From Phycisphaera sp. (GTDB lineage Bacteria; Planctomycetota; Phycisphaerae; Phycisphaerales; Phycisphaeraceae): a stretch of 64,000 bases of DNA. The stretch covers positions 1 through 64,000 of the forward strand of contig JANQPR010000154.1 of the NCBI GenBank assembly GCA_028285385.1, in the 5' to 3' direction. The stretch's first letter is position 1. Every line of letters starts with the position of its first letter. The notes under the pieces are model-generated. The model was not told the DNA's origin. It did no database searches and saw only the letters and a program-made list of their open reading frames with translations. Position numbers and translations under genes: made by a program. Below, in pieces: positions 9,741 to 51,058 of this stretch.

Positions 9741-9776
9741 TTGATGCGGGGACGGCCCCGGACTATGATGCAAGTT

Positions 9777-10799
9777 ATGGCGGTCACGCTCAAAGACATC
9801 GCAAAAAAGGCCCAGGTCACCGAGCAAGCGGTGAGCATGGCCCTCCGCGGGCATTCCCGTATTAGCAAAAAAACCAAGCAGAAGATCCGCAAGATTGCCC
9901 GGGAAATGAACTACCGGCCCAATCTGCACGCCCGCAGCCTCCGGCGGCAGAGCAGCAAGGCCGTGGGGTTCATCTTCCCCGACATCACGTATTCGTACGC
10001 CCAAGAGATCGCCGAAGGGGCCCGGTCCCAGCTGAATGAACACGGGTACGTCGGCCTGATCGGACTGTCGTCGTGGAACGCCGACCAAGAGATGCAGGAA
10101 CTCGAGCTGATGCTCGGGTTCCAGGTCGAGGCCCTGATCTGCACCCCGATCGTGGGCAGCGAAGCCACCTACGCCAAGGCCGTTGACGCCGGCGTGCCCC
10201 TGGTGTTTGCCGGCAACGGGCTGTCCATCCCCGGGGTCGCATGCGTCGGACTCGATGGCTACGACGCCGGACAGAAGGTGATGCGTCACCTGCTGGCGTT
10301 GGGACACCGCCGCATCGCGTTCATGGGCACCGAGTCGATGGCCGGCTCACAGTTCTTGTCCCCCATCCGCGAGGCGTACTTCCACACGATGGAACAGGCG
10401 GGCGTGCCGGTGCAAGACCACATGGTCTGTTACTCGCAGGTCGGCAACCAGGACAGCATCGAGTCCATCGTCGATCAGCTGATCGACTTGGAGCAGCGGC
10501 CGACGGCCATCTGCTGCGTGACCGACGCGATCGCTTACCTCGTGATGAACCGGCTGATCCAACGCGAGGTGCGGGTCCCTCAGGACATCTCCGTGACGGG
10601 CATCGGCGGGCTGCATTCTTCGAGCCTGGAGATGATCTCGCTGACCACCGTGACCGAAGACGCGTTCCGCGTTGGGTCGCTGGCGGCTCAGAGCCTACTG
10701 GAACTGATGGAAGAGCCAGACACCGAGCCCGACCGCCGCTTGGTCAGAGGAGACCTGATCGCACGGAAGAGCACGGCCCCGCCTCCGCAGCGGCGCTAA
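9777..10799 (+). CDS. LacI-family transcriptional regulator
   Basis: About 340 residues from the ATG at 9777 (MAVTLKDIAKKA); ATGs at 9765 and 9768 are also in frame. Residues 1-50 form the LacI helix-turn-helix (VTEQAVSMALRGHSRISKKT) with hinge helix, and the remainder is a periplasmic-binding-protein fold (GFIFPDITYSYAQEIAEGA onward) for an inducer sugar. Regulators of this class normally repress adjacent sugar-catabolic genes. Candidate targets are the oxidoreductase/aminotransferase pair immediately downstream and the minus-strand operon beginning at 20779, which carries a related box. Confidence 0.93.
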   Translation: MAVTLKDIAKKAQVTEQAVSMALRGHSRISKKTKQKIRKIAREMNYRPNLHARSLRRQSSKAVGFIFPDITYSYAQEIAEGARSQLNEHGYVGLIGLSSWNADQEMQELELMLGFQVEALICTPIVGSEATYAKAVDAGVPLVFAGNGLSIPGVACVGLDGYDAGQKVMRHLLALGHRRIAFMGTESMAGSQFLSPIREAYFHTMEQAGVPVQDHMVCYSQVGNQDSIESIVDQLIDLEQRPTAICCVTDAIAYLVMNRLIQREVRVPQDISVTGIGGLHSSSLEMISLTTVTEDAFRVGSLAAQSLLELMEEPDTEPDRRLVRGDLIARKSTAPPPQRR

Positions 10800-22105: not shown

Positions 22106-23323
22106 TCAACGCGGAGCCGTCGCGTCGGCCCGGGGCGGCCGACACCGTTCCCGGAACTGGCCCGGACTGACCCCCATGATCTCGCGAAAGACGCGGCTCA
22201 AGACCTCGCGGCTATTGAACCCGCTGGCCGGGGCGATCCGCTCCAGCGACTGGTCGCCGACCTGGAGCAATACGGCCGCCCGGTCAACGTGGGCGCGTTG
22301 GATTTGGCGGTAGAGGGTGTCGCCCATCGATCGGCGGAACCGGGTCTCCAGATTGCGACGCGATACCCCCGTCGCCGCCACGACATCGCTCACCTGGATC
22401 GGCTCGTCGGCGTGCTGGCGGATGAAAACCAGGGCTCGGTTCACCCACGGATCGTCGCTGGCACGGAACTCCGTGGACTGCCGGGTCATCACCCCCAGCG
22501 GCGAAAGCAGGTGGATTCCGTCGGGTCTGTCGTCGCCGCGCAGCCTCGTGTCGAGCAGTCTCGCAGCCTCGAAGCCGATCCGAACCGAAGGGACCCGGAT
22601 GCTCGACAGCGCCGGATACATCATCTCGCAGAGCATGGTGTCGTCGTCGACGCCCAACAGCGCCACGTCGTCGGGCACACGGATACCCGTCTCCCGACAG
22701 ACCTCGCAGAGCAACATCGCCAACGGGTCGTGCGCCGCGAGCAAGCCGACCGGCTTCGGCAGCCCAACGATCCACCGGCGAATCGCACCCGAACCCGTCG
22801 ACCAACGCCAGCCCGCCGCGTCCAACAGACGGGGCGAGCGTGTATCGGAGTACTCAGCCGGCGCAACGCCGGCCTCTCGAGCAAACCGCGAAAATCCCAA
22901 CGCGCGCATCTGGCTCGACAGCCGCGCAGATTCACCGCAATACGCAAGACCGGTGTAGCCCCGCTCCAAAAAGTACCGAGCGGCCGTCGCTCCCACGGCC
23001 TCGTTGTCCAGGCAGACTCGATCGACCCCGGGTGAATCCAGATCGCTGCTGCAGTTGACGAAAGGCACCCCGAGATCACGTAGTCGCCTTTCCAGCGCCC
23101 CGTCGAACACGGAAGCGATGATGCCTGCCGGCCCCCAGGCACGAAGCCGCGCTACCGCTTTCGTGTGCGGCAAGGACAAGTGAAACAGCCAAGGCCGAAG
23201 CGGCCGGGCGTAACGGCTGATCCCCTGGAACAGACCGCGCCCGTGCGCTTCGGCGGGCGACATGACCAGACCGATCCGGCGCGCCGGAAGGGCCGCGTCG
23301 GCGTGGTCTCGGGTGGACGGCAT
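22106..23323 (-). CDS. XylR-type AraC-family regulator with LacI-like sensor domain
   Basis: About 405 residues from the ATG at 23323. The N-terminal ~280 residues are a periplasmic-binding-protein-like sugar sensor (RRIGLVMSPAEAHGRGLFQG; VALLGVDDDTMLCEMMYPAL). The C-terminus is a double AraC helix-turn-helix (VSDVVAATGVSRRNLETRF; GFNSREVLSRVFREIMG). This is the architecture of E. coli XylR, which activates on binding a sugar and recognises direct repeats about two helical turns apart. It is divergent from the oxidoreductase-NagB-NagA operon at 23444 and is its most likely regulator. It is also one of two AraC-type candidates for the duplicated element at 37806 and 39626. Confidence 0.92.
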   Translation of the reverse strand: MPSTRDHADAALPARRIGLVMSPAEAHGRGLFQGISRYARPLRPWLFHLSLPHTKAVARLRAWGPAGIIASVFDGALERRLRDLGVPFVNCSSDLDSPGVDRVCLDNEAVGATAARYFLERGYTGLAYCGESARLSSQMRALGFSRFAREAGVAPAEYSDTRSPRLLDAAGWRWSTGSGAIRRWIVGLPKPVGLLAAHDPLAMLLCEVCRETGIRVPDDVALLGVDDDTMLCEMMYPALSSIRVPSVRIGFEAARLLDTRLRGDDRPDGIHLLSPLGVMTRQSTEFRASDDPWVNRALVFIRQHADEPIQVSDVVAATGVSRRNLETRFRRSMGDTLYRQIQRAHVDRAAVLLQVGDQSLERIAPASGFNSREVLSRVFREIMGVSPGQFRERCRPPRADATAPR

Positions 23324-24605: not shown

Positions 24606-25370
24606 ATGCAACTCAATGTGGCTACGGACAAGGCACGGATGGGCCGGCTTGCCGCGGTGGATGGGGCTGGGTTAGTGCGAGCCGCGGTCAAACGCCGCGG
24701 AGAGGCGAACATCATTGTCGCCACGGGGGCGTCTCAGTTTGAGATGCTCGGGGCACTGATCGCCGAGCCAGATATGCCCTGGGACCGCGTGACGGTGTTT
24801 CACCTGGATGAGTACGTGGGCCTGCCGATCACCCACCCGGCGAGCTTCCGCCGGTATCTCTGGGAACGCTTCCACCGCAAACTGCCCCTACCCGTCCGGG
24901 CGTTCCACTACCTCGACGCGGAGCTCGACCCGCATGCCGAAGCCAACCGTGTCGGCGAGGTCTTGCGCCGGCACCCGATCGACGTGTGCTTCTGCGGCAT
25001 CGGAGAGAACGGGCACTTGGCGTTCAACGACCCGCCGGCCGACTTCGACACCGACGAGCCGTACCTCGTCGTTGATCTCGACGAAGCCTGCCGGCGGCAA
25101 CAGCTGGGCGAAGGCTGGTTCCCCACCCTCGACGAGGTTCCCGAACACGCGATCTCCATGAGCGTGAAACAAATCATGAAGAGCAAGGCGATCGTCTGTA
25201 CGGTGCCGGACGAACGCAAGGCCGAAGCCGTCCGCAAGACGGTCGAGGGCGCGATCACGAACGCCGTGCCCGCCAGCATTCTGCAGGATCACGCCGATTG
25301 CACGATCTACACGGACCCGCCGGGCGCTTCCCTGCTTGCGGGCCCACCACAAGGAGCCGGTGAGGCATGA
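24606..25370 (+). CDS. nagB: Glucosamine-6-phosphate deaminase (NagB) homologue
   Basis: 254 residues. [13 protein letters not shown] contains the general-base aspartate region and [15 protein letters not shown] matches the family GxGxxGHxAFNxP active-site loop with its catalytic histidine. A second conserved block is [20 protein letters not shown]. NagB converts glucosamine-6-phosphate to fructose-6-phosphate plus ammonia in the cytoplasm. The stop overlaps the NagA gene start by four bases. Conservation of the core motifs supports a true deaminase. No GlcNAc kinase or phosphotransferase is present in the window. Confidence 0.9.
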
Positions 25371-26293
25371 GTGGGCCTGGGAACTTCGTTGACCTCCAGG
25401 TCAACGGTTACGCCGGCGTCGACTTCAACGCCGACGGTCTCGAGGCAGACGACCTGCACCGTGCCTGCTCCGCGATGCAACGCGACGGCGTACGCGGTTG
25501 TCTCGCCACGTTCATCACCGACCACCCCGAGGCCATGACCAGCCGGGTCCGCCGGCTCGTTCGGTTGCGGGCCGCAGACGATCTCGTTCGAAAGCAGGTC
25601 GTCGGGGTGCACATTGAGGGGCCGTTCATCCAGCCGAAACAAGGCTATGTCGGGGCACACCCGGCCGACGCCGTCATGCCCGCCGACCCCGACGTGATGA
25701 GCCGGCTGCTGGACGCCGGCGAAGGGCTGACCCGCCTCGTGACCCTCGCGCCCGAATGTGACCGGGGCCTCACGGTCACCCGTCTGCTGACGCGCGAGGG
25801 CATCGTGGTTTCGGCCGGGCACTGCAACCCGTCGCTGGATGAACTCGACGCGGCGATCGACGCGGGGCTCTCGATGTTCACGCACTTGGGCAACGGCTGC
25901 CCGATGCACGTGCAGCGACACGACAACGTCATCCAACGCGCACTCGCGCGTGCCGACCGGCTTTGGCTGTGCTTCATCGCGGACGGTGTCCACGTCCCGG
26001 TGTTCGCGCTGAAGAACTACCTGAAGTTGGCGGGCGATCGCGCGATCGTCGTGACCGACGCCATGGCCGCGGCGGGCCTAGGCCCGGGCCGCCACCGACT
26101 CGGCCGGTGGGAGGTCGACGTGGACGCCGACCTCGCCGCGTGGGCCCCCGACCGAAGCCACCTGGTCGGTTCGGCGATGACGATGCAACAGGCCGCCGCC
26201 AACCTTGCCGACCGGGTTGGCCTGGGCCCAGATCAGATCGACCAACTCACGCGCCGCCGGCCCGCCGCCGTCCTGAGGACCTGTTTGGATTGA
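25367..26293 (+). CDS. nagA: N-acetylglucosamine-6-phosphate deacetylase (NagA) homologue, short form
   Basis: 308 residues versus about 380 in E. coli NagA. The start falls almost at [14 protein letters not shown], the barrel's metal loop, so the N-terminal part of the small beta-sandwich domain is missing. Metal and catalytic features of the barrel remain: [10 protein letters not shown] (glutamate ligand), [10 protein letters not shown] (histidine), [10 protein letters not shown] (histidine) and [11 protein letters not shown] (catalytic aspartate). It would deacetylate GlcNAc-6-phosphate to feed the coupled NagB (ATGA overlap). The short N-terminus makes assignment to GlcNAc-6-P versus a related N-acyl sugar less certain. 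Confidence 0.88.
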
Positions 26294-27040: not shown

Positions 27041-29053
27041 TTATTCGGTTGGTTTTTCGTCATCCAGTTCCCGCCAACTCGCGGGCTCGTGTCGCCTGAG
27101 GTATCCGAGGTCAGCCACGCCGTTGCCCTGTATCTCAAGCCGGTAATCGTGGAGACGACGAAACGCTTCAGCCAGCCGTACTTCGTCCACGCGATCGGCT
27201 TTGTGCGCCCGCAAGGCTTCCAAGACCCGTTCGGCGTGAGTCAGCCCTTGGTCAAGAAACACGACGCGTGCCAAGGCCTTCGTGTCACCATGGGCGGCCT
27301 TGCCGGCGGCCGTGAGTCGGCGACGCCCCTCCGCCATTACCTCCGGCGTAAAGACCCGGTCGGCGATCAGCACCCAGTTGCGGTGACCGCCGGCACCACC
27401 TGCCTCGTAATGGAACAGGTTCATCGCGTCTTCGTCGAGAGCCGCTCCGACGCTCCGCCAATGATCGAAGTAGTGCTGTACGGCGGCGGACGCGGGGCCG
27501 AATGCCGCGTAGTACTCACCCATGATCTGTTCCGGCGTCAGGTCCGGGCGGTGGACGGCCCGGCCAAGGGCGTAGTAGGTCGGCCCCTGCGTCGCCCAGG
27601 AACCGATCAGCAGGTCGAAGTGCATGCCGACGGCACCGGTCCGGTGGAAGTACCGGATGTCGCGCATCAGTGGCCGCCCGTACTGGATCGGGAACGCGTG
27701 CCCGGCGTGCGTCAGGTTGGGGCGGAACATGACACGGGCTCCCGTCGCACGCCAGCCGTCCCACTCCCGGCGCGCGTCCCGGCTCATCCGCTCCGTGTAG
27801 GGGTACCATAACGGGGGCACAAAACTGATCAGGATTTGATCGTGTAAGCGGGTTTCTTTCGGTGCACGCCAATAGTTCGCGTAGCCGTAGCCCGCAACGA
27901 TCACGTCCGGCTCGAGCTCGCGGGCATGTTCCTGAACTCGGGCGTAAAACCGGGCGTACCGATCGGACAAGGAAGGCGCGTTGTTCAACCGGAACACCCC
28001 GCCCCAGGCGGCGCTGTCGCCGGCAAGCCCGCTCTCGGCGGCGAACCGCGTGAACCGCGACGGCACCTGCCCGCCGGCCCAGTACGGCGACGTGTAGAAC
28101 CGCCAGTCAGGGGCGTCCCACGCGCGGCAGCGCTCGCAAGTGCACATCCCCGGGGTGTCGTTCTCGCCGACCTTCAGCACCGGGGGCCGGCCAGCGGTTT
28201 CCCAATCCCGGATCGCCTGCTCCCACAGGCCCGGCTCCGAGACGCAGAGCGTGACGTAGGTGCCCGCCGGGTCTCCGGCCAGTGGCGCCCGCTTGCCGTC
28301 GGGCAAGAGGCTGAAGAACTCCGGGTTCGACCGGCCGAACCGCACCCAATAGTCGGGGAAGTTGTGGCTGGGCCGGAAGTCGTACGTGATGGTGAACCCC
28401 ATCCGTTTCTTCCACACCGCCTGGTCACGGGTGAAAGCTTCGCCGGCCGCGGGGTCGGGCCAGTGTTCGTGACGCGGGATGATGCGCCACGTGCTGAGCC
28501 CGAGGACCGGCGAGCCGTCCCGGCGCCAACGCTCAACCCGGATCGTGGCCCGCGCCGGGATCACTTCACCCAAGGCCCCGGGCCAAACCCACCGCACGCC
28601 CAGGTGCTGCTCGAGGAAGTCGTACACGCCGAAGAGCGTGCCGTTGACGCCGTCGGCCAGCGGGTCGCCGTCGGCGTCGTCGCCGAAGATGAACAGGCCC
28701 GCTTCGGTCAGCCGGGCTCGGAAGCTGTCGGGTGCGAGGGTTTCGAGATCGAGGCCGGCCGCTTTCGTGGCTTCACATGAGCCGAGGTAGACGCGGGGGG
28801 TGACGTCACCGGCGAGGTCGCCCTCGCGGACGATCGGCAACTCGGCGCCGCTCGCTTGGCGGACGTGGTGTTGCAGTTCTTCCGCGGCGTACTCCACCGA
28901 AGGAAACGGATAATCGGGAACCACCACGACCGCAACGGGCTCGCCGTCGATGACCAAGTCGAACGCCGACGACCTGCCGACGACCGACGCGACCAGGAGC
29001 AGCAGCGACACCCGCAACGCACGGCGGGCGAAGTAGTAGACGTGGTACTGCAT
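27041..29053 (-). CDS. Secreted DUF4838 protein, candidate exo-glycosidase
   Basis: 670 residues. A basic start and a hydrophobic stretch (ALRVSLLLLVASVVGRSSA) form a signal peptide. Residues ~30-150 resemble the beta-hexosaminidase-type N-terminal alpha/beta domain (VEYAAEELQHHVRQASGAELP; LFGVYDFLEQHLGVRWVWPG). The central part (SHNFPDYWVRFGRSNPEFFSLLPDGKR in outline, GENDTPGMCTCERCRAWD) is typical of DUF4838 proteins near alpha-glucuronidases. ENDTPGMCTC contains conserved acid and cysteine residues, but the catalytic pair is not established for the family. Four upstream genes for amino-sugar-type chemistry suggest it releases an amino-sugar or uronic residue outside the cytoplasm. Confidence 0.85.
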   Translation of the reverse strand: MQYHVYYFARRALRVSLLLLVASVVGRSSAFDLVIDGEPVAVVVVPDYPFPSVEYAAEELQHHVRQASGAELPIVREGDLAGDVTPRVYLGSCEATKAAGLDLETLAPDSFRARLTEAGLFIFGDDADGDPLADGVNGTLFGVYDFLEQHLGVRWVWPGALGEVIPARATIRVERWRRDGSPVLGLSTWRIIPRHEHWPDPAAGEAFTRDQAVWKKRMGFTITYDFRPSHNFPDYWVRFGRSNPEFFSLLPDGKRAPLAGDPAGTYVTLCVSEPGLWEQAIRDWETAGRPPVLKVGENDTPGMCTCERCRAWDAPDWRFYTSPYWAGGQVPSRFTRFAAESGLAGDSAAWGGVFRLNNAPSLSDRYARFYARVQEHARELEPDVIVAGYGYANYWRAPKETRLHDQILISFVPPLWYPYTERMSRDARREWDGWRATGARVMFRPNLTHAGHAFPIQYGRPLMRDIRYFHRTGAVGMHFDLLIGSWATQGPTYYALGRAVHRPDLTPEQIMGEYYAAFGPASAAVQHYFDHWRSVGAALDEDAMNLFHYEAGGAGGHRNWVLIADRVFTPEVMAEGRRRLTAAGKAAHGDTKALARVVFLDQGLTHAERVLEALRAHKADRVDEVRLAEAFRRLHDYRLEIQGNGVADLGYLRRHEPASWRELDDEKPTE

Positions 29054-29067
29054 AGCGAACTCGAGCG

Positions 29068-30006
29068 TCAGTGCATCTCCACGTCAACGGTGCCGATGCC
29101 GCCGCGGTAGTAGCTGAAGGTGACGTCGGGGTGATCCGACAACAGAGACATCGGCACCGCGGTGTCCGCCAAACCTTTGCTGATCATCAGCGCCGAGAGA
29201 CGGATGCCGAAGGGGTTGTCGTGGTGGCCGGGGTGGTAGATGCTGACCCGCTCGGCCTTCCACGTCTCGACCGGGCCGACGGTGCAGGCACGGGTCGGCA
29301 CACTGGGGACGTAGCCCCCGCCGGACGTCCGTGCGTTCTGGATCACCGTCATCGGGTGCAGGTCCGTCACGCGGGTGCCGAGGCGACGGTACACCTCGGG
29401 CGGCGGCGGCGCGTCCACGTAGTCGCCCTCGCGTTTCGGCGGGTCGTTGAACGCCCAGTGCTTGATCTCGCCCTGCCCGCCCTGCATCACCACGCAGCGG
29501 ATGTCGTCGTAGCTACGGCCGTACGCGTCGAGGTCTCCGGTGGGAAAGTGCAGGTTGGCCGAGGGGATCGCCAGCCCCGGCTCGATCCGATCGAAACAGA
29601 GCTCCTGATCAGCCTTGGCGAAACTGAGCGGGAACTCTTCGGGCACCGGGCGGTCGTGCTCGTCGACCCACTCGTCCATGCCCCAGAAGTGCGCGTCGTG
29701 TTTGCCGAGGTCCAGCCCCAGGGCGTTGACCATCCGGGCGACCAGCGGGAGCTGTTCGGTGGGGCCGATCGGCCCACAGATGCCGGCGGGGTTGTCGGGC
29801 GTCGACTGCTTCCAGGCGTCGATGTACTCCAAAGCCTCAACGCAGTAGAGCTCTTCGAGCGTGTCGTAGATGCGCACCGCAAAACCCGGGCGACTCAACT
29901 GCAGCAGGTCGCCGGGGGACAAACGAGCCGCGTCCTCGAGCAGGTCGGGCTCGAGTGTCGTGTAGTCCCACCAGTCGGGGGCGACTTTGCTGAGCGGGCG
30001 CGCCAT
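29068..30006 (-). CDS. Divergent glucosamine-6-phosphate deaminase/isomerase-like (NagB-like) protein
   Basis: About 312 residues from the ATG at 30006, preceded by AAGGAG six bases upstream. It keeps the NagB skeleton with altered motifs. FWGMDEWV stands where NagB has LDEY, and [16 protein letters not shown] stands for GxGxxGHxAFNxP, with the histidine retained. [20 protein letters not shown] parallels the later conserved block. It is about 60 residues longer than the NagB at 24606. It probably isomerises or deaminates an aldosamine related to glucosamine-6-phosphate, or a non-phosphorylated analogue. The operon context (deacetylase, isomerase, oxidoreductase) supports amino-sugar chemistry. 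Confidence 0.78.
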
Positions 30007-30031
30007 CGGGTCTCCTTTCGATCCGTCTGCG

Positions 30032-31057
30032 TTAAGCGAGTTCGGGCTTGACCGGCCCGCCTTCGCGGACACTCCGGGCCTCGGCCTCGACGATGGCGAC
30101 CGACACGGCGGCGTCGCGCACGGTGACCCGCTGCGGCTTCTTCCCGCCGACGACGCAGCCCAGGAAGTAGTCGATCTCGTGCTGGTAGCCCATCCCCTCG
30201 GCCAGCTTTACCGGTTCGGTTTCACCGGCGCGGATCAGCCGGAGCACCGGGTCGCCCGCGAGGTCAAACACCGCCGTCGCGTCGTCGAAGTTCACGGTGA
30301 ACTGCATCTCGAAGCCGAAGCCTTCCTGGTACGCCCAGCCGCCTTCCGCGGTGACGATGGCGGGGGCGTGGTCACTTTTGTAGTGGTACGAGGTGACGAC
30401 GTGGTCGATCCGGTTGGTGAGCTTGTCGTAGCCACGGCTGAGCACCCTCGCCGGCGGGCCGAAACACCACTGGATGAAGTCCGTGTCGTGGACGTGCAGG
30501 TCGAGGATGGCGCCGCCGCACTGGTCGCCATTGAGGTAAAACTCCCCGCCGGGGTGTGAGGTCACTCGGCGGAAGTGCGCGGCCCTGACCTTGCCGTAAC
30601 GCTGCTCGTCGATGGCGGCCTTGAGCCAATCCCAGCCGGGCCAGAAGCGCATACACATAGCCGGCATCACCACCTTGTCGCTGCGCTCCGCGAGTCGGGC
30701 CAGCGCAAACGCCTCCGCCCCCTGCGGGGCCAGGGGCTTCTCGACCAGGACGTGCTTGCCCGCCTCGATCGCGGCCCGCGCGAAGGCGGCGTGCAGATGG
30801 GTCCAGAGGCAGATGTCGACGACGTCCACGTCGGGGTCGGCGATGAGCCTCATGCCCTCGTCGTACCGCCGGGCGGCGGAGAGGTCGGCCCCGCCCTGCG
30901 CCTGCCCTTCGATATTCCCGCCGGCCTTGGCTTTGCCGGAGAGGCGGTCGCGGTCGATGTCCGCCACCGCGGCGACGTTGACGTCGTCACGGGCCCCGTA
31001 CACGTCGAGATGTGTGTTGCCCATCATCCCCAGTCCGATGACGCCGACGTTGATCAT
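30032..31057 (-). CDS. Gfo/Idh/MocA-family oxidoreductase
   Basis: 341 residues with Rossmann motif [17 protein letters not shown], catalytic [14 protein letters not shown] and a C-terminal domain containing [20 protein letters not shown]. The LHVHDTD segment supplies the usual catalytic aspartate/histidine pair. AAGGAG precedes the ATG at 31057. It lies third in a tightly spaced minus-strand operon between a sugar isomerase/epimerase and a NagB-like protein, and probably oxidises or reduces the same amino-sugar-derived intermediate. It is one of four such oxidoreductases in the window, each beside a different partner set. Confidence 0.92.
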
Positions 31058-31082
31058 GCCAGGTCTCCTTGGTCTCCGCGGC

Positions 31083-31952
31083 TCAGGCGGCGAGGATCGC
31101 GTCCATGTCGCGGCTGACCTGATCGAGCAGGCCTTCGCTCCACGGCATCATCTCGGCCACCAGGGTTTTTTCGTAGCCGATCGCGCGCAGCGCGGCCATC
31201 GTCGCCGCCCAAGGCACGTCGCCCTCCATCAAGCCGCAGAACGCATACGAGCCATCGAAGCCGAACGACTCGCGGTACCCCTTGATGTGGACCCGTTTGA
31301 TGCGGCCGCTCAGCAGCTCGATCCAGTGCTCGGGCCGTTGCTGGTAGCCGAGCACGTTGCCGACGTCGAAGTACACGCCCAGCCGGTCAGAACCGAAGCT
31401 GTCGATGAAGTCTCTCAGCTCGAGCGGCGAATAGAACAGGCCGTTCCAGACGTTCTCGAGGCACAGGTCCACGCCCACACGTTCGGCGGTCTCCAACAAC
31501 CGGGAGACCCCGTCCCGGGCTCGATCGACCGCGGTGTCGTAGCGGACGTGTTCTTCCGGGGCGATCGGGCTGTTGACGACGCCGGGCACGTAGAGCATGG
31601 CCCCGCACCCGAGCCACGCCGCGCGTTGCAACGCGGCGGCATGGAGTTCGATCGCCCGCTCGCGGACTGCCGGGTCGTCGCTGGTGGGGTTGAAGGCCCA
31701 GGTCATGCCGCTGGCGATCGTCGAGCAGTGCAGGCCCGTGGCGTCCAGCCGAGCGCGGACGGCGACGCAGTCGGCTTCCATGGTCTCGCTGGTGAGCCCA
31801 CTCCGGAGCGGGTCGGCGGGTGCCGGGCCGGGACCGATACACAGCTCGATGCCCGCGAAACCGGCGGCCTTCGCCTGATCCAGCGCGTCGTCGATCGGGT
31901 GGGTGTTGGCGAGCCCGTCTCGCATCGACCAGTAGGTGGCGCACTTGATCAT
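31083..31952 (-). CDS. Sugar phosphate isomerase/epimerase (xylose isomerase-like TIM barrel)
   Basis: About 289 residues from the ATG at 31952 (MIKCATYWSMRDGL). The AP-endonuclease-2/xylose-isomerase-like barrel is visible in AAGFAGIELCIG, VDLCLENVWNG, LGVYFDVGNVLGY, RIKRVHIKGY and CGLMEGDVPW. The glutamate, aspartate and histidine positions are the divalent-metal ligands of this family. Members epimerise or isomerise keto-sugars, often next to Gfo/Idh/MocA enzymes. The open frame extends upstream into the deacetylase gene, so the longer start is rejected. It is separated from the deacetylase by about ten bases. Confidence 0.9.
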   Translation of the reverse strand: MIKCATYWSMRDGLANTHPIDDALDQAKAAGFAGIELCIGPGPAPADPLRSGLTSETMEADCVAVRARLDATGLHCSTIASGMTWAFNPTSDDPAVRERAIELHAAALQRAAWLGCGAMLYVPGVVNSPIAPEEHVRYDTAVDRARDGVSRLLETAERVGVDLCLENVWNGLFYSPLELRDFIDSFGSDRLGVYFDVGNVLGYQQRPEHWIELLSGRIKRVHIKGYRESFGFDGSYAFCGLMEGDVPWAATMAALRAIGYEKTLVAEMMPWSEGLLDQVSRDMDAILAA

Positions 31953-31962
31953 GGCTTGATCC

Positions 31963-32733
31963 TCACGACGAACCCAGCAGGCCGGCCAACAGATCATCTT
32001 CGGGGAACGCGTGGCCACGGTGCTGTGTAAACGACTCGGCATACTCCGAGCCGATCAACCCGCCGCGGAAGGCCCCGTGGCGGCGCATCGCTTCGATGTA
32101 CTCGTCCATGCCGTGGTGCTCACGCAGCCATTCACGCTGGGAGGCGTGTAGCGCCAGCATCTCGGCCTTGCGATCGATCACGCCCGTCACGTCGATGGTC
32201 GTGGTCGGCGTGACGGGCAGACCCGAGTAGGGGTCGCGCCCTTCGATCGGGTCGGTGTAGTAGAGGTGCGGGATCGCCGCGCCCGCGGGCAGGGGCAAGG
32301 CCGACGCGTTGGGAATCGGGTAGGAGAACGACGCGGATCGCGCCAGCAGGTGAACCTGCTCGTGGTCCAGCATGTAGTCGAACCGGGGGTGAGTGAGCAC
32401 CAGCGAAGGGGCGAGCCGACGGAACAGATCGATCGCCTTGCGGTTCGACGCGTGATCGAACGCCACGTCCACGTCGGATTCTTCGAGGCAGTGGTAGCTC
32501 GCGCCGATCAGCGCCGCCGCTCGACGCCCCTCCTCCCGCCGGAGATCGGAGATCGCGTCGCGCGAGAGTGTCGCGCTGCCACAATCCCCGGCGGTCGCGG
32601 TGGCGATATGCACGTCCCACCCCAGGCCCGCCAGCCGGATCAACGTACCGCCGCACAGGATCTCGGCGTCGTCGGGGTGAGCAAAGAACGCCAAGGCAAC
32701 CCTGCGCGAAGACGAAGACGGCACATCAGACAT
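31963..32733 (-). CDS. PIG-L/LmbE-family N-deacetylase
   Basis: About 256 residues from the ATG at 32733. ALAFFAHPDDAEILCGGTL carries the AHPDD zinc-binding motif and FDYMLDHEQVHLL supplies the later histidine (HxxVH) ligand. Relatives remove acetyl groups from GlcNAc in GlcNAc-PI, mycothiol precursors, bacillithiol or chitobiose. As first gene of a five-gene minus-strand run ending at 27041, it would generate a free amine on the sugar that the NagB-like enzyme then handles. Substrate not determinable from sequence. Confidence 0.9.
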   Translation of the reverse strand: MSDVPSSSSRRVALAFFAHPDDAEILCGGTLIRLAGLGWDVHIATATAGDCGSATLSRDAISDLRREEGRRAAALIGASYHCLEESDVDVAFDHASNRKAIDLFRRLAPSLVLTHPRFDYMLDHEQVHLLARSASFSYPIPNASALPLPAGAAIPHLYYTDPIEGRDPYSGLPVTPTTTIDVTGVIDRKAEMLALHASQREWLREHHGMDEYIEAMRRHGAFRGGLIGSEYAESFTQHRGHAFPEDDLLAGLLGSS

Positions 32734-33716: not shown

Positions 33717-33726
33717 AAACCGGTTT
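33717..33726. promoter_or_regulatory. AAACCGGTTT palindrome upstream of the pseudopilin gene
   Basis: A perfect ten-base palindrome with the same AACCGGTT core found twice in the promoter of the LacI gene at 53668. It overlaps the stop codon of the upstream secreted-protein gene and lies about 80 bases before the ATG at 33636. The core is short enough for one or so chance occurrences in this window, so operator status is tentative. Confidence 0.3.
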
Positions 33727-36322
33727 AGTCGTTGACCTCCGCGATCACCATTCCGTCTGCGGGCACGGCGACGTCCAGAACACCATCGGCACCAATGTCG
33801 ACGCGGGGGAGGTGGTTGCGGTCCATCAGGTCGCCGTTCTTGTCGTAGCGGTAGAGCGTTACCTCGACGGCGCGACCGGGCCACGCGTAAGCCCCCGAAC
33901 GCGTCGCGATCAAGCGTTCCTCCGCCTTGATCACTCCGGGCCCCAACGCTTGAACCGTGATGGGGTACTGCTTACTGACAAAGTTGTCGGGCCCGTCGAG
34001 GACGAGGTTGCATTCCTTGGGCGAGTAGACGCAGCCGTTCTCGATCACGGCCTTGACGGACTGGAACACGCCCCGGCGGGTCGTGCCTTGGTCGCCGAAG
34101 TTGCCCAGGATCAGCGGGACGGTCGCCAGGTGTGCGCCGGCCCACGCGCCCACCCCGTTCCCGCCTTCGCGGAACCGCAGCGCCCGCAACTCGTTGACGC
34201 TCCGCAGCGCCGCGTTGCCGTTGGCGATGAAGTACTTCCCGCGTTCCCGGGCGGCCCGGAACATCTTGAGCTGCGTGGCTTCGGAGGTGTACGCGTTGTC
34301 CGATTTGAGACGGACCACGTTGCCTCGCTCGTCGAGGTCCGCGGAGTACCCGTCGGACTGGGCGTAGTCGTACCGGCTGTACCCACGGGTCGGACCCTCC
34401 CAGCTGAACTCGTCGACGTAGACGCCGTCGCCGTTGGCCTCGTCCAGGCTCCGCTCGACGTCCCGGAGCGTGATCGACTGGTAGGGCGAGCCGTCGCGGG
34501 GGACGTTGTAGGTCATCTGCCAGCCCTTGGCCGCGGTTTCGCCGAGAAAGGCTCGCGTGTAATGCGGGCTGTTGAACAACTCACCGTCCGGGCCCCGCAA
34601 CGCCTCGCCGTCGTGCGGCCAACGGTCCGCCAGCGGAAGGTAGACCGCCTCGATGCCCGGGTGGGTCATATGCACCAGTTGCGCGTCGGGCAACGCCTCA
34701 CGCAGCACCTCCACCCGCGCCGTGTAGTCCGCCCAATACGGCTCGCGGTGAGCGAAGGTGAGGTACGCATCCACGTCCAGGTCCGCCATCGTCCCCGGCG
34801 TGCGCGGCGCGCCGGGCGAGAGCCGTGGGTACTGCCCGGTCTCGAGCAGGTGAAGGTCGTAGCCCATCCGCATCCAGGGGTGCGTCGTCTGCCAGGAGGA
34901 AACCGCGATCTTGCCGAGGTGGCCGAACGCCTTCTGCCATGCTTCGGGCGTCATACGGCCTTGCCGGCCCGCCCAGTTCCAGAAGAACGGGCGCTCGGCG
35001 GTCCCGCCGTTGACGCCCCAGCGTTCACGGACGCGGTTGATGAACGTCCAGTAGCCGCCGTCTTCAACCGGCGTCACCGTGTAAACAAAGTCGATGCTGT
35101 CGCCCGGCTGCAGCGACGCGTGCAGCGAATAGACCTCGCCCAGGCCGCCCGACTGCCTCAGGCCCGACAGCAGCCGAAGCCAGTCGCTCTCCAGCGTGAC
35201 CCCGAAGCCGCTGCCGAGTTTTTCCTTCGACCCGAGGTAGACCGTCGGGTTGGTCGCGGACGACGCAAGGTGGTTGATGGTCGAGTCGCCGCCCAGCCGG
35301 AAGCTCGACAACTCGTCCCGGAGAAACACGCGTTGCTGATAGGGCAAGCCGACCACGGCGTCGCCCGTATTGGTCCACGTCTCGGTCCAGTGCAGCAACC
35401 CGTCTCTGATCTGCAACGCGCGTTCAAGCACCACGCCGTTTGCCCAAGCCGCCCGCAACTCGAAGTCGGCTTCCCCCGCTTCGTCCGTCGTCCGGACTTC
35501 GACCCCGTTGGACTCGGCGTCTTCGGCGATCAACTGAGACTCGGCCTGACGATCCGCCGACAGCCCGGTCTCGACCAGCAACTCCACGCCGCCCGGCCCA
35601 ACCAGGGTGAAACCGCCGCCCGCCGCCTGGGCCAGCGACAAGCCGTCACGCGACACCGCGCCACCGATCGCTGCGCGCTTGGGCGTCCGGTCGGGGAGCT
35701 TGGGCAGCAGCGATTTGTCCAGCCAGCCAACCTCGATGTCGGTAACGATCAGGTCGCGGTCGGGGTCCGTGCTTGCCGTGCGGCGCATGTTCGAAAGCCG
35801 CAGCAGGTTGCCGTCGACACCCCGGGCCACGTCCGAAATATTGAAGGCGAACGAAGCGCCTTGGCCATCGGGGATCATGGCGTCCCCGGTGTCGGCGTCG
35901 GGCGCGTACATCGTGCGGATCATGAAGCCCGAGAACAACTGCCAGTCCCGGCCCCGCGCGTGGTACACCGCGTCTCGGCCGATGAGCCGCGGGTCACCGG
36001 CGCTGGTGTGGCGTTCGAGTGCGTTGCCGTTGAGCGAAAACTTCGCGTTGAAGTTCCAGCCGCCCGGCGTGGGATTGTACGACACCGCCCGAAACCGCAG
36101 CACGGTCACCATGTTCGGACGCGGCGTCAACGGCGGCAGCGCAACGTCCACCTCCTCCGCGTTCACGAGCACCTGATCGTCAAACCTGATCACATCCTGC
36201 AGCGGCAACTCCGCGACGGTCAGCTTCTTGTCTGGGCGCGCCTCCGCGGCGTGACCGTGCGGCAAGAGGGTCAGAAACGAAAGCGCCACCCCGAGCAACA
36301 CGGCTTTCATTGCACTTGCCAT
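33725..36322 (-). CDS. Large secreted protein of unknown function, possible carbohydrate-active enzyme
   Basis: About 865 residues from the ATG at 36322; the frame also has a GTG at 36358 and an ATG at 36310. A signal peptide (AVLLGVALSFLTLLPHGHAA) is followed by a beta-rich half. The C-terminal half looks like a TIM-barrel glycosidase: SWQTTHPWMRMGYD, TMADLDVDAYLTFAHREPY, NGDGVYVDEFSWEGPTRGY and KYFIANGNAALRSVNELR. GVYVDEFSWE has the D-x-x-W/E geometry often found at a catalytic strand end. I cannot assign a GH family. It may act on the same polysaccharide as neighbouring secreted proteins. Confidence 0.82.
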   Translation of the reverse strand: MASAMKAVLLGVALSFLTLLPHGHAAEARPDKKLTVAELPLQDVIRFDDQVLVNAEEVDVALPPLTPRPNMVTVLRFRAVSYNPTPGGWNFNAKFSLNGNALERHTSAGDPRLIGRDAVYHARGRDWQLFSGFMIRTMYAPDADTGDAMIPDGQGASFAFNISDVARGVDGNLLRLSNMRRTASTDPDRDLIVTDIEVGWLDKSLLPKLPDRTPKRAAIGGAVSRDGLSLAQAAGGGFTLVGPGGVELLVETGLSADRQAESQLIAEDAESNGVEVRTTDEAGEADFELRAAWANGVVLERALQIRDGLLHWTETWTNTGDAVVGLPYQQRVFLRDELSSFRLGGDSTINHLASSATNPTVYLGSKEKLGSGFGVTLESDWLRLLSGLRQSGGLGEVYSLHASLQPGDSIDFVYTVTPVEDGGYWTFINRVRERWGVNGGTAERPFFWNWAGRQGRMTPEAWQKAFGHLGKIAVSSWQTTHPWMRMGYDLHLLETGQYPRLSPGAPRTPGTMADLDVDAYLTFAHREPYWADYTARVEVLREALPDAQLVHMTHPGIEAVYLPLADRWPHDGEALRGPDGELFNSPHYTRAFLGETAAKGWQMTYNVPRDGSPYQSITLRDVERSLDEANGDGVYVDEFSWEGPTRGYSRYDYAQSDGYSADLDERGNVVRLKSDNAYTSEATQLKMFRAARERGKYFIANGNAALRSVNELRALRFREGGNGVGAWAGAHLATVPLILGNFGDQGTTRRGVFQSVKAVIENGCVYSPKECNLVLDGPDNFVSKQYPITVQALGPGVIKAEERLIATRSGAYAWPGRAVEVTLYRYDKNGDLMDRNHLPRVDIGADGVLDVAVPADGMVIAEVND

Positions 36323-36504
36323 CGCTGATTTGGTCCCATGGATCGATTGGGCGGGCACGACAACGCTTGGTCCGTTCTCTCCACCGTTCTGCCGGAAGGG
36401 CTGACGGGGGCGTTAACCCCCGCCAACACGGGTCGGGTCTATACGGAGTTCGAACACGGGCAAACGTTCACCGCTGCCCTGTCTGTGTCTCGACTCCCCC
36501 ACAC

Positions 36505-43760: not shown

Positions 43761-45497
43761 TTAGACCTCAGACCACATGCGGCATAGGGTATGCGCCGCC
43801 AACTTGGGGTTTCGGTCCCGGGTAAAAACACCCTTGCGGTTCATCGTCACGCGTTTGGGTGATTGAGCGGTTTGGAAGTCGGCAAAGTTCCAAACGTGGG
43901 TTCCGATCACATAGGGCTTGGTTTCTGCGACGCGGGTCTGCGTTTCGATAATCGCAGCCTGGTATTCCTCGCTGAACAGTTCGTCGCCGAAGCCGTGCAA
44001 ACCCGCCACGGCGTCCGCGCCGTACTCCGCGAGCAGGATGGGCTTGCCGCAAGCCGAGTGCATCTGGTCGAGGTAGCGGCTCAACGCTTCGGCCGAATGC
44101 TCGAGTTGGCCGAGTTCTTCGTACCAGCCGAAGTATTTGTTGACCCCGATCAGGTCGAAGTGGGTCATCCCGCGGTTGTTGGAGGTGTCGCCGTGGGCCA
44201 CATACATCACAGGCCGGGTCGGGTCGGCGCGGCGAGCGGTGTCCGCGAGTTGCTCGAAGAACCCCGCGCCCCGTTCAGAGCGGACGTTGGGTTCGTTGGC
44301 CACCGACCAGGTGATCACGCTGGGGTGATTCGCGTCCCGCTCGATCATCTGCCGCAGGATGGCGCAAGCGTCGCGAAGCTGCTCGGGCCGCTCAAAGAAG
44401 CGTTCTTCCAGTCCGACCAACGAGGTTTCGCCGACCACCAAGAATCCAAGCCGGTCGGCCAAGTCGAGGGTCTCTTCAGCGTAAGGGTAGTGGCTGGTTC
44501 GGAAGCTATTTGCTCCGATCCAACGCATCAGGTCGAAGTCGCGGACGATCAGCGACTCGCACAGGGCTTTGCCGATCACGGGGAAGTCTTCGTGCTTGCC
44601 GAAGCCACGGAGCCGGATCGGATCGCCGTTGAGCAGCAGTTGGCCGTCGGCGACGCGCACGCTGCGGAGGCCGAAGGTGACGGGCGATCGATCGACGACC
44701 GAATCTCCGCGGAGCAGTTGCACCTCCCCGGTGTACAGATGAGGGTCGTCGGGGCACCATCGCCTGGCTTGAGGGAATGCCATCGTCAGGGTCGCTTGAC
44801 CGCCTACCTCGATCGGCGATTGAGCGGTTCGGCCGTCCACCACAAGCCGAGCAACATCCGCCTGATCCCCTTCGACCTCGACGGTGGCGACGAGGCGAAA
44901 CGAATGATCATCGTCGGTCGGCGTCGCCACGGCGACGTTGCGGATATGAGTTCTAGGCAGGGCGTACAGCGTGACGGGACGATGGATCCCGCCGTAGGGG
45001 AAAAAGTCGTAGGCCACTGCGGGTTCGCTGTCCCAGAATCCGGCCCGCCCTTCGCCCTGCCGCAAGCGTGCCGGGGGCAACGCCCAGGGGTCGATCGGCA
45101 TCTCCACCGCCACCGTGATCCTGTTGTCCTGCCCCCATCGGATCGCGTGTTCACATCGGCCCTCGAAAGGCAGATGCCCGAACTGTTGCTCCGCGATGCA
45201 ATATCCGTTGACGTATACCTTCGCGCTCTGGTTCGCCGCGCCCACCCGCAAGAACACGGCCTGTTCCCGCCAAGCATGTGGCACACGGAAGACTCGGTCG
45301 TAGCGTGTGAGCCCGAAGTAGTTTTTCAGGTCGCCGTATTGCTCGGCCCACGAACCCGGGACCGCCATCGGCCGGGCCGGCCCGCTCGAGGACTCGGGGC
45401 GAAAGTCGCTAAGCCGTTCTCCCGGCAGCGGCGTAAAGTCCCAAAGCCCGTTGAGGCCGACGTGATGGCAGAACATATGGTGGCGGATGTGTCTCAC
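43761..45497 (-). CDS. Beta-glucuronidase (glycoside hydrolase family 2)
   Basis: 578 residues, no signal peptide. The jelly-roll domain (GLNGLWDFTPLPG) and immunoglobulin-like domain precede a TIM barrel with GFGKHEDFPVIGK, NSFRTSHYPYAEE, acid/base glutamate 402 in WSVANEPN and nucleophile glutamate 491 in LLAEYGAD. The ending VWNFADFQTAQ and TMNRKGVFTRDRNPK matches E. coli GUS, including the N-x-K motif that holds the uronate carboxylate. It should release glucuronic (or galacturonic) acid from oligosaccharides in the cytoplasm. The start is GTG at 45497. It begins the polysaccharide cluster. Confidence 0.93.
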   Translation of the reverse strand: MRHIRHHMFCHHVGLNGLWDFTPLPGERLSDFRPESSSGPARPMAVPGSWAEQYGDLKNYFGLTRYDRVFRVPHAWREQAVFLRVGAANQSAKVYVNGYCIAEQQFGHLPFEGRCEHAIRWGQDNRITVAVEMPIDPWALPPARLRQGEGRAGFWDSEPAVAYDFFPYGGIHRPVTLYALPRTHIRNVAVATPTDDDHSFRLVATVEVEGDQADVARLVVDGRTAQSPIEVGGQATLTMAFPQARRWCPDDPHLYTGEVQLLRGDSVVDRSPVTFGLRSVRVADGQLLLNGDPIRLRGFGKHEDFPVIGKALCESLIVRDFDLMRWIGANSFRTSHYPYAEETLDLADRLGFLVVGETSLVGLEERFFERPEQLRDACAILRQMIERDANHPSVITWSVANEPNVRSERGAGFFEQLADTARRADPTRPVMYVAHGDTSNNRGMTHFDLIGVNKYFGWYEELGQLEHSAEALSRYLDQMHSACGKPILLAEYGADAVAGLHGFGDELFSEEYQAAIIETQTRVAETKPYVIGTHVWNFADFQTAQSPKRVTMNRKGVFTRDRNPKLAAHTLCRMWSEV

Positions 45498-45548
45498 GGA
45501 CGCGTTTCCTCGATGCGTAAGGATGGGCTGGCGTGAAACCCAACACGA

Positions 45549-46880
45549 CTACGCCCCTAGAAGCTTGCTTAAGTCCGCCAAGTAGACCCGGCGGGTTCCG
45601 CCCGCGAAGGCGTTGAAGGCGACGAACCGCCAATCACGGCTCCACGCGGGGTGTGGGTCGACCCGCAGGGCGTTCTGGCCGGGTTGCAACTGGTGCGGCG
45701 TCCGTGTCGGGAGGCGGGCGATGGTCGTCTCTCGGCCGGCCCGATAGTCCACCCAGCGCAGCGGCGTGGTCCCGTCGTCATTGGCCATCGGTTCAGTGCT
45801 GTAGGCGTCGGTGAGTAGGTGTCGTCCATCCGGGTGAACGCTCGGATGGCCGGACCCGAGGACCGCTTCGGTCATCGGCTCCAAGTCTGCCCCGTCCTCG
45901 CGGCAGCGTACGAAACGGAGGTCCCGGTCCAGGGTGAGGTTCATCGACAGCCGACGGCCGTCTGGGAACCAGTTGATGTGGTGCCCGATCTTGGTCCAGC
46001 GGGAGGTGGGCACGGCGTTAAAAACTTTGCGACCGTCGGCGGATACGGTCATCACCGTGAACTTCATCGGCGGGCTGCCGCTGATACGGTTGAAAACCGG
46101 CTGACCCTCGTGGGGGAAGAAACGCAGCGTAAAGATCAGTCGGTCGCCCGTCGGCGACCACTTCGCGTGGAACCCGTAGATTTCGTGATGCTCGGGACCG
46201 TCGATCTCGAAACGGGGCGTCGCGCGGCAGATCGCGTCGTGGATCGAGAGCAGTAGTTTCGCGTCGCCGGTCCGTGTGTCGGTGATGGTCAAGCCGTCGT
46301 CGTGCACCGGCCCGAGGCGGTGTGGCACGTGCTCGCTTGGAAGGGTGACGCCATAGCCCAACTGCGTGCGGACCATGGCCGCGAGATTCGCCGAAGCCGC
46401 GTGTGTGCCGTCGGGGCTGACGTGGTAGATCGTCCCGCCCAGCCGGGTACGGCGGCCGCGATGGGGATCGAATCGGACGCCGTAAGGCTTCCACTCGCAC
46501 GGGTCCACGTCGTTGAAAAGCAGCGAGCGGTCATCGACCCCCCAGTTGAGGTTGCAGCCCAACTGAGTTTCCCAGCCCCGGGTTTCGGCGACCAGGCGCT
46601 GGCGGCCGGTTTGCAGATCGACCAGACCGACGTGCCCGACGTCGCCCGGCTTTGGCAAGCGGTCCTCAAAAGGGAGTTTGAAGAACGCGAGGTAACGGCC
46701 CGACGGGCTGATCGGGCAGGTGTCGAAGAACCGGTGGATGGCCCCGGATTGGTCGGGAGTGACGCACCAGATCGGCACCTCCGGGTTACAGTCGCGGTAT
46801 TGGGGAAAAAGCCGATCGAGTTGCGCCGGGTCGAGCGGGGACGCCGCCGGCTGGGGAACAGGAGTGGTCGCTTGAGCCAT
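45549..46880 (-). CDS. TolB/WD40-like beta-propeller protein resembling oligogalacturonate lyases
   Basis: 443 residues with repeated blade segments (ISPSGRYLAFFKLPFEDR; HVSPDGTHAASANL; AKWSPTGDRLIFTLRFFP; NWFPDGRRLSMNLTLDRD; HPSVHPDGRHLLTDAY). Conserved histidines, as in HEIYGFHAKW and IGHHINWFPDGR, recall the metal-binding propeller of oligogalacturonate lyases, which cleave unsaturated uronides. No signal peptide. The ATG at 46880 is preceded by GAAGG. Location beside a beta-glucuronidase fits a uronate-oligosaccharide role, but family assignment is by pattern only. Confidence 0.75.
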   Translation of the reverse strand: MAQATTPVPQPAASPLDPAQLDRLFPQYRDCNPEVPIWCVTPDQSGAIHRFFDTCPISPSGRYLAFFKLPFEDRLPKPGDVGHVGLVDLQTGRQRLVAETRGWETQLGCNLNWGVDDRSLLFNDVDPCEWKPYGVRFDPHRGRRTRLGGTIYHVSPDGTHAASANLAAMVRTQLGYGVTLPSEHVPHRLGPVHDDGLTITDTRTGDAKLLLSIHDAICRATPRFEIDGPEHHEIYGFHAKWSPTGDRLIFTLRFFPHEGQPVFNRISGSPPMKFTVMTVSADGRKVFNAVPTSRWTKIGHHINWFPDGRRLSMNLTLDRDLRFVRCREDGADLEPMTEAVLGSGHPSVHPDGRHLLTDAYSTEPMANDDGTTPLRWVDYRAGRETTIARLPTRTPHQLQPGQNALRVDPHPAWSRDWRFVAFNAFAGGTRRVYLADLSKLLGA

Positions 46881-46956
46881 ACGGAACCTTCACGTTTCAC
46901 GGGGCTTCCGGCCGCACTTCAGGCCGGATCAAACCTTGATCGCGATCGCGCAGTCA

Positions 46957-48003
46957 TCACGCCCTCTCCGGGCGCCGACACAAGTCCAGAGCGGGTGATA
47001 CCTTCCGCCGACGCCTACGCGAACACCGCAGCGGTCCCGCGCTCAGCAGGAGCAGCGCCCCCATTGAAGGCTCGGGGTTGATCAGGGGCTGGTCGTTGCG
47101 TTTGTAAACGCGCACCCAATCGACCTCGAAATAGCTGTTCGTCGACCGGTCGTTGTACGAGCCGTACCCCCCGCTGGGCACGTCCCCGGCCCAGCCGCCG
47201 TCTTTCATGCCCATACTCAAAGTAATGAACTCGGGTGTATTGGAGATCGGCACCTGGTTGCCGGTCCACCAAACCTGCTGTTCGTCGAGGAAGATTTTGT
47301 AGTGGCTCCCGGTCCATTGCAGCCCGTAGACGTGCCAGTCCCACGGGTCGTCATTGGGATACGCGGTGGTCTTGGGCTGCGTCTGCTGGTCGGCGCCGTA
47401 GCCGTCCCAATGGAAGGTGCTGCGGAAAGAATCGCCGATGTATTGGTTGTTGCCGTTGACCCGGCGGTGTTCGATCACGTCCATCTCGACGCCGTCCTGC
47501 TCGGCGGGGGTCGGCGGATTGGCCGCGACGTTTTCGCCGTTGAGCCAGAACGCGCCCCACGTCCCGGGCTTGGTGTGGAACTTGATGCGGGCTTCGAAGT
47601 AGCCTTTGTTCCAAGCGTCGCCTTCCTCGTTGAACCGGGTGGTGATGTAGCTGCTGGCGTGGTCACCGGCGGGGGTCGTGTAGGTCAGTACGCGCAGCTT
47701 GCCGTCCCCGGCGTTGCCGCGGCTGGTCACGAAGTGGGCCCCGGTTTTGTAGAGCATGTCGTTGCCCGAGTCGGCGGTGCGGGTGTTGTTGGCAAACCGG
47801 CTCTGCCACTTGTCGGGGTTAGGCTTCCCATGGACGACGCTGCTCAACTCGAAGTTGTCCTCCCACACTTTGGTGTAGCCGGACGTAAACGGGATGGCCC
47901 CCGCCGAGCTCACGTGCCACACAGCCACAACGCCGAACACGACGATTGGCAAAGGATTAAAACCAAGAGAACGACAGAGATACGTAGAAAAAGAAGGAGG
48001 CAT
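46957..48003 (-). CDS. Secreted GH16 endo-glycanase with PEP-CTERM-like tail
   Basis: About 348 residues. The ATG at 48003 is chosen because AAAGG lies eight bases upstream; ATG 48009 and GTG 48012 are alternatives. A signal-like segment (IVVFGVVAVWHVSSAGA) precedes a GH16 beta-jelly-roll. The catalytic motif is GVEMDVIEH, with E173, D175 and E178 in the E-x-D-x-x-E arrangement, followed by FHWDGYG and FFEVDWVRVYKR-type core strands (YFEVDWVRVYK). GH16 enzymes include agarases, porphyranases, carrageenases and laminarinases. The C-terminus NPEPSMGALLLLSAG with a basic tail suggests PEP-CTERM anchoring. A galactan substrate is likely given the cluster. Confidence 0.92.
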   Translation of the reverse strand: MPPSFSTYLCRSLGFNPLPIVVFGVVAVWHVSSAGAIPFTSGYTKVWEDNFELSSVVHGKPNPDKWQSRFANNTRTADSGNDMLYKTGAHFVTSRGNAGDGKLRVLTYTTPAGDHASSYITTRFNEEGDAWNKGYFEARIKFHTKPGTWGAFWLNGENVAANPPTPAEQDGVEMDVIEHRRVNGNNQYIGDSFRSTFHWDGYGADQQTQPKTTAYPNDDPWDWHVYGLQWTGSHYKIFLDEQQVWWTGNQVPISNTPEFITLSMGMKDGGWAGDVPSGGYGSYNDRSTNSYFEVDWVRVYKRNDQPLINPEPSMGALLLLSAGPLRCSRRRRRKVSPALDLCRRPERA

Positions 48004-48140
48004 CGCCATCACCTTTCACGAGATAAAGACCAAGGCCGGGCAGACGGCACGGGACGAGACATGACCGTCTGGCACAGGATTGCTTGGCGACCCAAGGAGA
48101 CTTGCGGAACGTGACGAACAAATCAGAGCGGCCGCAAAAA

Positions 48141-50997: not shown

Positions 50998-51058
50998 GAC
51001 CAAATCCTTTCCGACGCTGTCGGCTCTGTGGCCAGGGCTGAAAACAGCGAGTTCAACG

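Follow-up and report, generated by a model that had tools for sequence, protein, structure and literature searches.

The textbook order of bacterial amino-sugar catabolism is phosphorylation first and deamination last. A family of enzymes that deaminates free sugars would, if real, reverse this order. In NagB, the glucosamine-6-phosphate (GlcN-6-P) deaminase of Escherichia coli, catalysis involves Asp72 and His143, and the phosphate is contacted by R172, K208 and a TG[GS]TP loop. The chitin route of Thermococcus employs a PIG-L-type diacetylchitobiose deacetylase, GlmA, GlmD and a glucosamine kinase, with a deaminase of the SIS family acting after phosphorylation. The kinase step of that route has been described (PMC6520443). 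In haloarchaeal fructose degradation, as shown in Haloarcula, ketohexokinase is followed by fructose-1-phosphate kinase (PMC11519228). Here we describe an operon of Phycisphaera sp. that combines a PIG-L protein with a NagB-like protein, NagBL. It lies in a stretch of 64,000 nucleotides, referred to below as the window (GenBank assembly GCA_028285385.1, contig JANQPR010000154.1, positions 1 to 64,000). The conserved unit at this locus is the pair of PIG-L and NagBL, to which two further genes are a recurrent extension (Gfo and AP2) and one is a local addition (DUF4838).

In the order of transcription, on the minus strand, the operon encodes PIG-L, AP2, a Gfo/Idh/MocA oxidoreductase (Gfo), NagBL and a DUF4838 protein:

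31963..32733, minus strand: PIG-L family N-deacetylase, 256 amino acids (PF02585 8e-24, 85 bits against a cut-off of 28.2)
31083..31952, minus strand: xylose-isomerase-like TIM barrel AP_endonuc_2 (AP2), 289 amino acids (PF01261 4.7e-39)
30032..31057, minus strand: Gfo/Idh/MocA oxidoreductase, 341 amino acids (PF01408 2.6e-22)
30009..30022, minus strand: ribosome-binding-like site of NagBL, AAAGGAGA (from the sequence)
29068..30006, minus strand: NagB-like protein NagBL, 312 amino acids (AlphaFold2 model, Foldseek, family conservation)
27041..29053, minus strand: DUF4838 protein, 670 amino acids, with a signal-like N-terminal segment (PF16126 8e-23, 81.5 bits against a cut-off of 26.6)

All five genes are coding and the gaps between them are 10, 25, 25 and 14 bases, in line with the original prediction of five minus-strand genes with spacings of about 10-30 bases. 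NagBL starts at the ATG at 30006, preceded by AAAGGAGA; a longer open reading frame from a GTG at 30072 would overlap the upstream gene.

NagBL is a tight orthologous family distinct from NagB. The window protein has no Pfam match even up to E=10, hence it falls below the profile cut-off of PF01182. Neither is there an NCBIfam match at 1e-3 (the TIGR00502 cut-off is not reached), and phmmer against the Protein Data Bank (PDB) returned nothing. The family is large and strongly conserved, and its members are without a curated functional name because neither Pfam nor NCBIfam has a model for it. The relationship to NagB appears in profile-profile comparison with canonical NagBs (hhalign, 98.7% probability, E 5e-16) and in structure. 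An AlphaFold2 model from a diverse 63-row alignment has a mean predicted local distance difference test score (pLDDT) of 96; a model from ten close orthologues, with a pLDDT of 56, was discarded. The retained model has the GlcN-6-P deaminase fold (Foldseek against the PDB, E 1.1e-15 to 7lqn, TMt 0.74), and the top matches are GlcN-6-P deaminases at E ~1e-15 and a target-normalised template modelling (TM) score of ~0.75. The 6-phosphogluconolactonases rank well behind at 4e-9, and this function is less likely for NagBL because the deaminases match the model far better.

Members of the family are 62-85% identical to the window protein over 99 sequences from about ten phyla. Below them the identity breaks off, the next relatives in the genomes searched reaching at most 36%. 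A quick tree, which serves solely for this point, recovers NagBL as one clade (Shimodaira-Hasegawa-like approximate likelihood-ratio test, SH-aLRT, 99). In one scan at least 574 stretches encode the family, and the best 80 of them come from Planctomycetota, Verrucomicrobiota, Lentisphaerota, Kiritimatiellota, Chloroflexota, Armatimonadota, Omnitrophota and others; these 80 are the best-scoring loci, several of them from metagenome bins that may be mislabelled taxonomically. The distribution is patchy (24 of 294 genomes). The closest relative among the genomes searched belongs to another planctomycete family (85%, G257) and one of the same genus reaches 79% (G001), which fits a mobile catabolic module. 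Two side observations concern single loci. The NagBL of G031 is split over two overlapping frames (L039:9400-10328) by a frameshift or sequencing error, and in three loci of ruminant-gut Thermoguttaceae (L124, L127, L135) a GmrSD-type restriction protein is encoded immediately downstream of NagBL.

What distinguishes NagBL from NagB at the active site? The counterparts of NagB's catalytic Asp72 and His143 are D111 and H183, which are invariant in 99/99 members together with E112, K182 and D188. R226, present in 98/99, corresponds to the phosphate-contacting R172. However, D141 of NagB has become Val or Ile, G142 the invariant lysine K182, and E148 Asp. The phosphate loop reads IGPTEQ where NagB has TGGTP, with the Glu found in 96/99. 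In the stretch equivalent to K208 only 4/99 members have any lysine, whereas the same profile alignment shows a K208-type lysine in the window's canonical NagB and in the NagB half of a NagB-PIG-L fusion. The E. coli row of this alignment agrees with PDB alignments. A two-residue deletion in the phosphate loop, seen in one MAFFT alignment, was dropped; the profile alignment is gapless over the loop. These replacements suggest that the isomerisation and deamination chemistry is kept in NagBL, whereas phosphate recognition may be weakened or lost. The original prediction had called the protein an atypical NagB, citing MDEW and a 12-letter motif, and had guessed at a non-phosphorylated or oxidised sugar. 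Both motifs are present, the guess agrees with a family of its own whose phosphate site has changed, and the comparison with true NagB that it proposed yields the relationship (98.7% in hhalign), the retained Asp and His and the lost lysine just described.

The second line of evidence is the partner of NagBL. We compared 103 non-duplicate loci using home-made gene calls, an operon being genes on the same strand with gaps of <=250 bases. The two genome collections behind them overlap in part, and although three duplicate loci were removed, further duplicates may be left. PIG-L lies in the NagBL operon at 60 of the 103 loci, as against 4 PIG-Ls among 781 other flanking genes. Some of the remaining loci are cut by a contig end or have PIG-L slightly farther off. 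In a tree the NagBL-associated PIG-Ls make up one subfamily (>=52% identity to another member, as against <=37% for other PIG-Ls of the same genomes), and three genomes in which NagBL lacks an adjacent PIG-L (G222, G215, G188) encode a subfamily member elsewhere (57-75% identity). Across 294 genomes, with PIG-L called at E<=1e-25, the two co-occur in 22 of the 24 NagBL genomes where 4.3 would be expected; Fisher's p of 1.3e-16 is indicative because the genomes are not independent. That PIG-L and the NagB-like protein belong together, as had been supposed, is thus upheld by linkage, a dedicated subfamily and co-occurrence. The operon PIG-L has AHPDD and DH zinc motifs, and H19, D21, D22 and H124 are invariant over 37 members. 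Its best PDB match by E-value is 4-oxalmesaconate hydratase (5cgz), followed by diacetylchitobiose deacetylases and then BshB-type deacetylases. Therefore, membership of the PIG-L family alone does not fix the reaction. As a separate observation, a second NagB-like group with ~25-36% identity to NagBL also sits beside PIG-L (G045, G049, G203, G252, G262, L056, L058), several of its members carrying the motif GRACHIAFWEPH; NagBL is thus not the only NagB-like family to be paired with PIG-L.

The other genes of the operon are less constant. Gfo occurs in 25 of the 103 NagBL operons and AP2 in 10, each time with Gfo. All ten of the latter also hold PIG-L, so that the window's four-gene set recurs in ten other operons. 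These come from Planctomycetota, Verrucomicrobiota, Chloroflexota and Kiritimatiellota and differ in gene order, and such shuffling favours a functional link over common descent alone. In L039 the four genes recur as well, across a wider gap. Only 1 of the 103 other operons also has DUF4838 (L191), and the copy here is the only one in this genome. The idea of five genes as one conserved system was rejected on this count. Of the neighbourhood first proposed, then, the PIG-L and NagBL core stands, AP2 and Gfo stand as recurrent but optional members, and DUF4838 drops out. A phmmer search of the DUF4838 protein against the PDB matched no solved structure; the domain is presumably that of GH163. 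A GH163 endo-beta-N-acetylglucosaminidase cleaves GlcNAc-beta-1,2-Man (PMC10154615). NagA is found in none of the 103 NagBL operons. Single operons add UxaE, N-acetylglucosamine (GlcNAc) 2-epimerase, GHL10, DeoC/class II aldolases or transport-type proteins (SSF, ABC, DUF6785), and these additions fit catabolism. LacI regulators also occur alongside the pair.

How might the pair operate? From gene linkage, co-occurrence, fold and residue changes we infer reactions, a step order and a substrate class, and with marginally better than even confidence we favour a route in which a free N-acetylated amino sugar first loses its acetyl group, then its amine to give a ketose, and is phosphorylated last. 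PIG-L, to judge by its family, would take the acetyl group off an imported N-acetylated amino sugar. NagBL would then open the ring and, via D111 and H183 of its GlcN-6-P deaminase fold, deaminate and isomerise the free 2-amino sugar to a 2-ketose and ammonia. It would do so without a phosphate handle, as the loss of the K208-type lysine and the acidic residue in the phosphate loop suggest. The ketose would be phosphorylated afterwards by an enzyme of the PfkB/ketohexokinase type, whose gene is adjacent in some species and distant in others. Where present, Gfo and AP2 would oxidise, epimerise or cleave a less common amino-sugar glycoside and so supply the pair, and DUF4838 would be a locally recruited secreted protein, probably a glycosidase. 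The substrate may be a hexosamine, a hexosaminuronate or a 6-deoxy-hexosamine.

The window operon is without a kinase, as originally noted. However, that is not the whole picture, since a PfkB kinase lies downstream of NagBL in 7 of the 103 operons and the source genome has two ROK genes and about eight PfkB genes outside the operon. The fullest example is Cerasicoccus frondis (L082), in which PIG-L and NagBL are followed in turn by an unassigned 350-residue protein, a kinase with a Pfam match to the prokaryotic ketohexokinase family (4e-47), a pair of small proteins and another PfkB. The unassigned protein (L082:11062-12111) has relatives in L068, L070, L077 and L103. It is a conserved protein of 340-350 residues with an FLKIPY motif beside NagBL and kinases, and has no Pfam match in any of the five loci. 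It is possibly a sugar-phosphate aldolase, going by a weak LsrF-type hint (E 0.13) that we do not rely on.

Several points weigh against this kinase-last route. The residue equivalences between NagBL and NagB were assigned by profile alignment and not from superposed coordinates. R226 is retained, as is T83, which matches a loop Thr, and NagBL may still bind phosphate via other residues. About 40% of NagBL loci have no PIG-L in the operon, and in G276 and G299 NagBL is present with no PIG-L match at the 1e-25 cut-off. PfkB is adjacent in merely 7% of NagBL operons, and as a large family it could act on other sugars such as 2-keto-3-deoxygluconate.

What if the substrate is one that cannot be phosphorylated at C6? 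Candidates are hexosaminuronates, from which fructuronate or tagaturonate would result, and 6-deoxy-hexosamines, e.g., fucosamine or quinovosamine. The core reaction would be that of the kinase-last route, of which this is a special case, and we regard this special case as rather unlikely, though it fares best of the alternatives. In L034 the gene directly upstream of PIG-L encodes UxaE, of the tagaturonate epimerase family (2e-124), and in L090 and L114 an enolase-superfamily (MR_MLE) gene immediately precedes NagBL. In L031, from the same genus, PIG-L is preceded by a protein with a weak fucose-isomerase C-terminal match and by an aldolase of class II (rhamnulose-1-phosphate type). In addition, the invariant K182 beside the catalytic His could hold a carboxylate. 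However, each such neighbour gene is rare, and a neutral ketohexose would equally agree with the ketohexokinase match in L082.

Alternatively, NagBL could be an ordinary deaminase of GlcN-6-P or galactosamine-6-phosphate with a rearranged phosphate site, PIG-L acting on GlcNAc or GlcNAc-6-phosphate and a ROK or other kinase being encoded elsewhere, as in the Thermococcus route. The conserved fold and catalytic Asp and His, the match of R226 to R172 and the ROK and PfkB genes of the genome agree with this. So does a fusion in the same genome (L179, contig C28), where a 667-residue NagB-PIG-L protein (6746-8749, minus strand) is divergent from a ROK kinase (8927-9964, plus strand). As a side observation, PIG-L matches in G001, G023, G035 and G257 fall within open reading frames of 630-680 residues that resemble this fusion. 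Nevertheless, nearly all NagBL members have lost the K208-type lysine and carry Glu in the phosphate loop, and no ROK family is among the 25 Pfam families listed for 130 operon partners. Moreover, the genome already owns an ordinary pair, which lies ~3 kb from the operon on the opposite strand, beside another Gfo and a LacI/AraC-type regulator:

24606..25370, plus strand: ordinary NagB-type glucosamine-6-phosphate deaminase, outside the operon (PF01182 3.6e-20; NCBIfam nagB models to 3e-38)
25367..26293, plus strand: NagA-type N-acetylglucosamine-6-phosphate deacetylase, outside the operon (TIGR00221 2.4e-48)

The regulator (22106-23323) joins a LacI-type ligand domain to a C-terminal AraC-type helix-turn-helix (HTH_18). 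The original prediction, only partly supported overall, had missed this pair. A phosphorylated amino-sugar route thus exists separately in the genome, in the NagB-NagA pair and the fusion beside ROK. This makes an extra ordinary GlcN-6-P deaminase less needed, though not impossible, and we consider that reading of NagBL unlikely.

A further alternative is oxidative glycoside cleavage, in which Gfo would form a 3-keto glycoside, AP2 would cleave or epimerise it and NagBL would act on the resulting keto-amino sugar. AP2 is always found with Gfo, and distant relatives of the window Gfo include the 3-oxidase DgpA and levoglucosan dehydrogenase-like chains. However, 90% of NagBL operons have no AP2 and 75% no Gfo; NagBL must therefore be able to act in their absence, and this explanation is improbable. 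A role of the pair in biosynthesis or detoxification (e.g., of a thiol cofactor or aminoglycoside-like product), prompted by BshB1 and MshB among the relatives of PIG-L, is highly improbable given the patchy spread (24/294 genomes), the transporters, glycosidases and LacI regulators alongside and the separate PIG-L genes of the same genome outside the subfamily.

With confidence a little short of even, we suggest that NagBL is a new family that deaminates free amino sugars and, together with the PIG-L dedicated to it, makes up a kinase-last route for N-acetylated amino sugars that is widespread in Planctomycetota, Verrucomicrobiota, Chloroflexota, Armatimonadota and relatives; taken jointly with this claim, the divergent NagB-like family beside PIG-L (25-36% identity) would be a second branch. 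If true, this would explain how uronic or 6-deoxy amino sugars, for which phosphorylation at C6 is impossible, can be used. Open-access literature on DUF4838, on PIG-L with NagB and on deamination of unphosphorylated glucosamine gave no account of this system. As Cerasicoccus isolates carry NagBL, the family is already open to genetics and enzymology.

Other observations concern the surroundings and a further NagB-like group. Upstream of the operon region, 33725-36358 encodes a protein of 861-877 residues with no Pfam match and the appearance of a secreted glycosidase. Further right in the window (43761-63305), GH2, GH10, GH16 and three sulfatases are clustered, and the region is therefore seen as one for the use of sulfated polysaccharides. 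In L046, L047, L055, L057 and L059, another NagB-like group (GPGWTGHLAFVEPD) occurs in operons with a NagA-like protein, a class III aminotransferase, a DeoR regulator, an FGGY kinase and a ceramidase-like protein. These may represent another undescribed amino-sugar pathway.

Set against known systems, NagBL shares with NagB (PF01182, TIGR00502; PDB 1dea, 5hj5, 7lqn, 3hn6) the fold at a TM score of ~0.75, the catalytic Asp (MDE), the His (HxAFN) and the Arg of the NxR motif. It differs in being only ~20-23% identical, with an extra 40 N-terminal residues, no Pfam or NCBIfam match, replaced equivalents of D141, G142 and K208, the loop IGPTEQ and Asp for E148. The NagB-PIG-L fusion (PRK02122 / NF002557, glucosamine-6-phosphate deaminase-like protein), of which there is one copy here, likewise joins a NagB-type deaminase to PIG-L. 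However, the NagB half of the fusion contains the Pfam NagB domain and retains the usual lysine, whereas NagBL stands alone as a protein of a different family, and its PIG-L is of a different subfamily. The operon PIG-L scores only 21.6 bits against NF002557 and NagBL has no match; being separate genes, the two are not this fusion. The Thermococcus chitin route likewise places PIG-L deacetylation ahead of deamination, but there glucosamine is phosphorylated before a SIS-family deaminase acts, whereas here the enzyme has a NagB fold and apparently no prior kinase. Finally, the ketohexokinase-type enzyme and second PfkB downstream of NagBL in L082 resemble the haloarchaeal fructose route, in which the ketose comes from a sugar alcohol, whereas here it would derive from an amino sugar.

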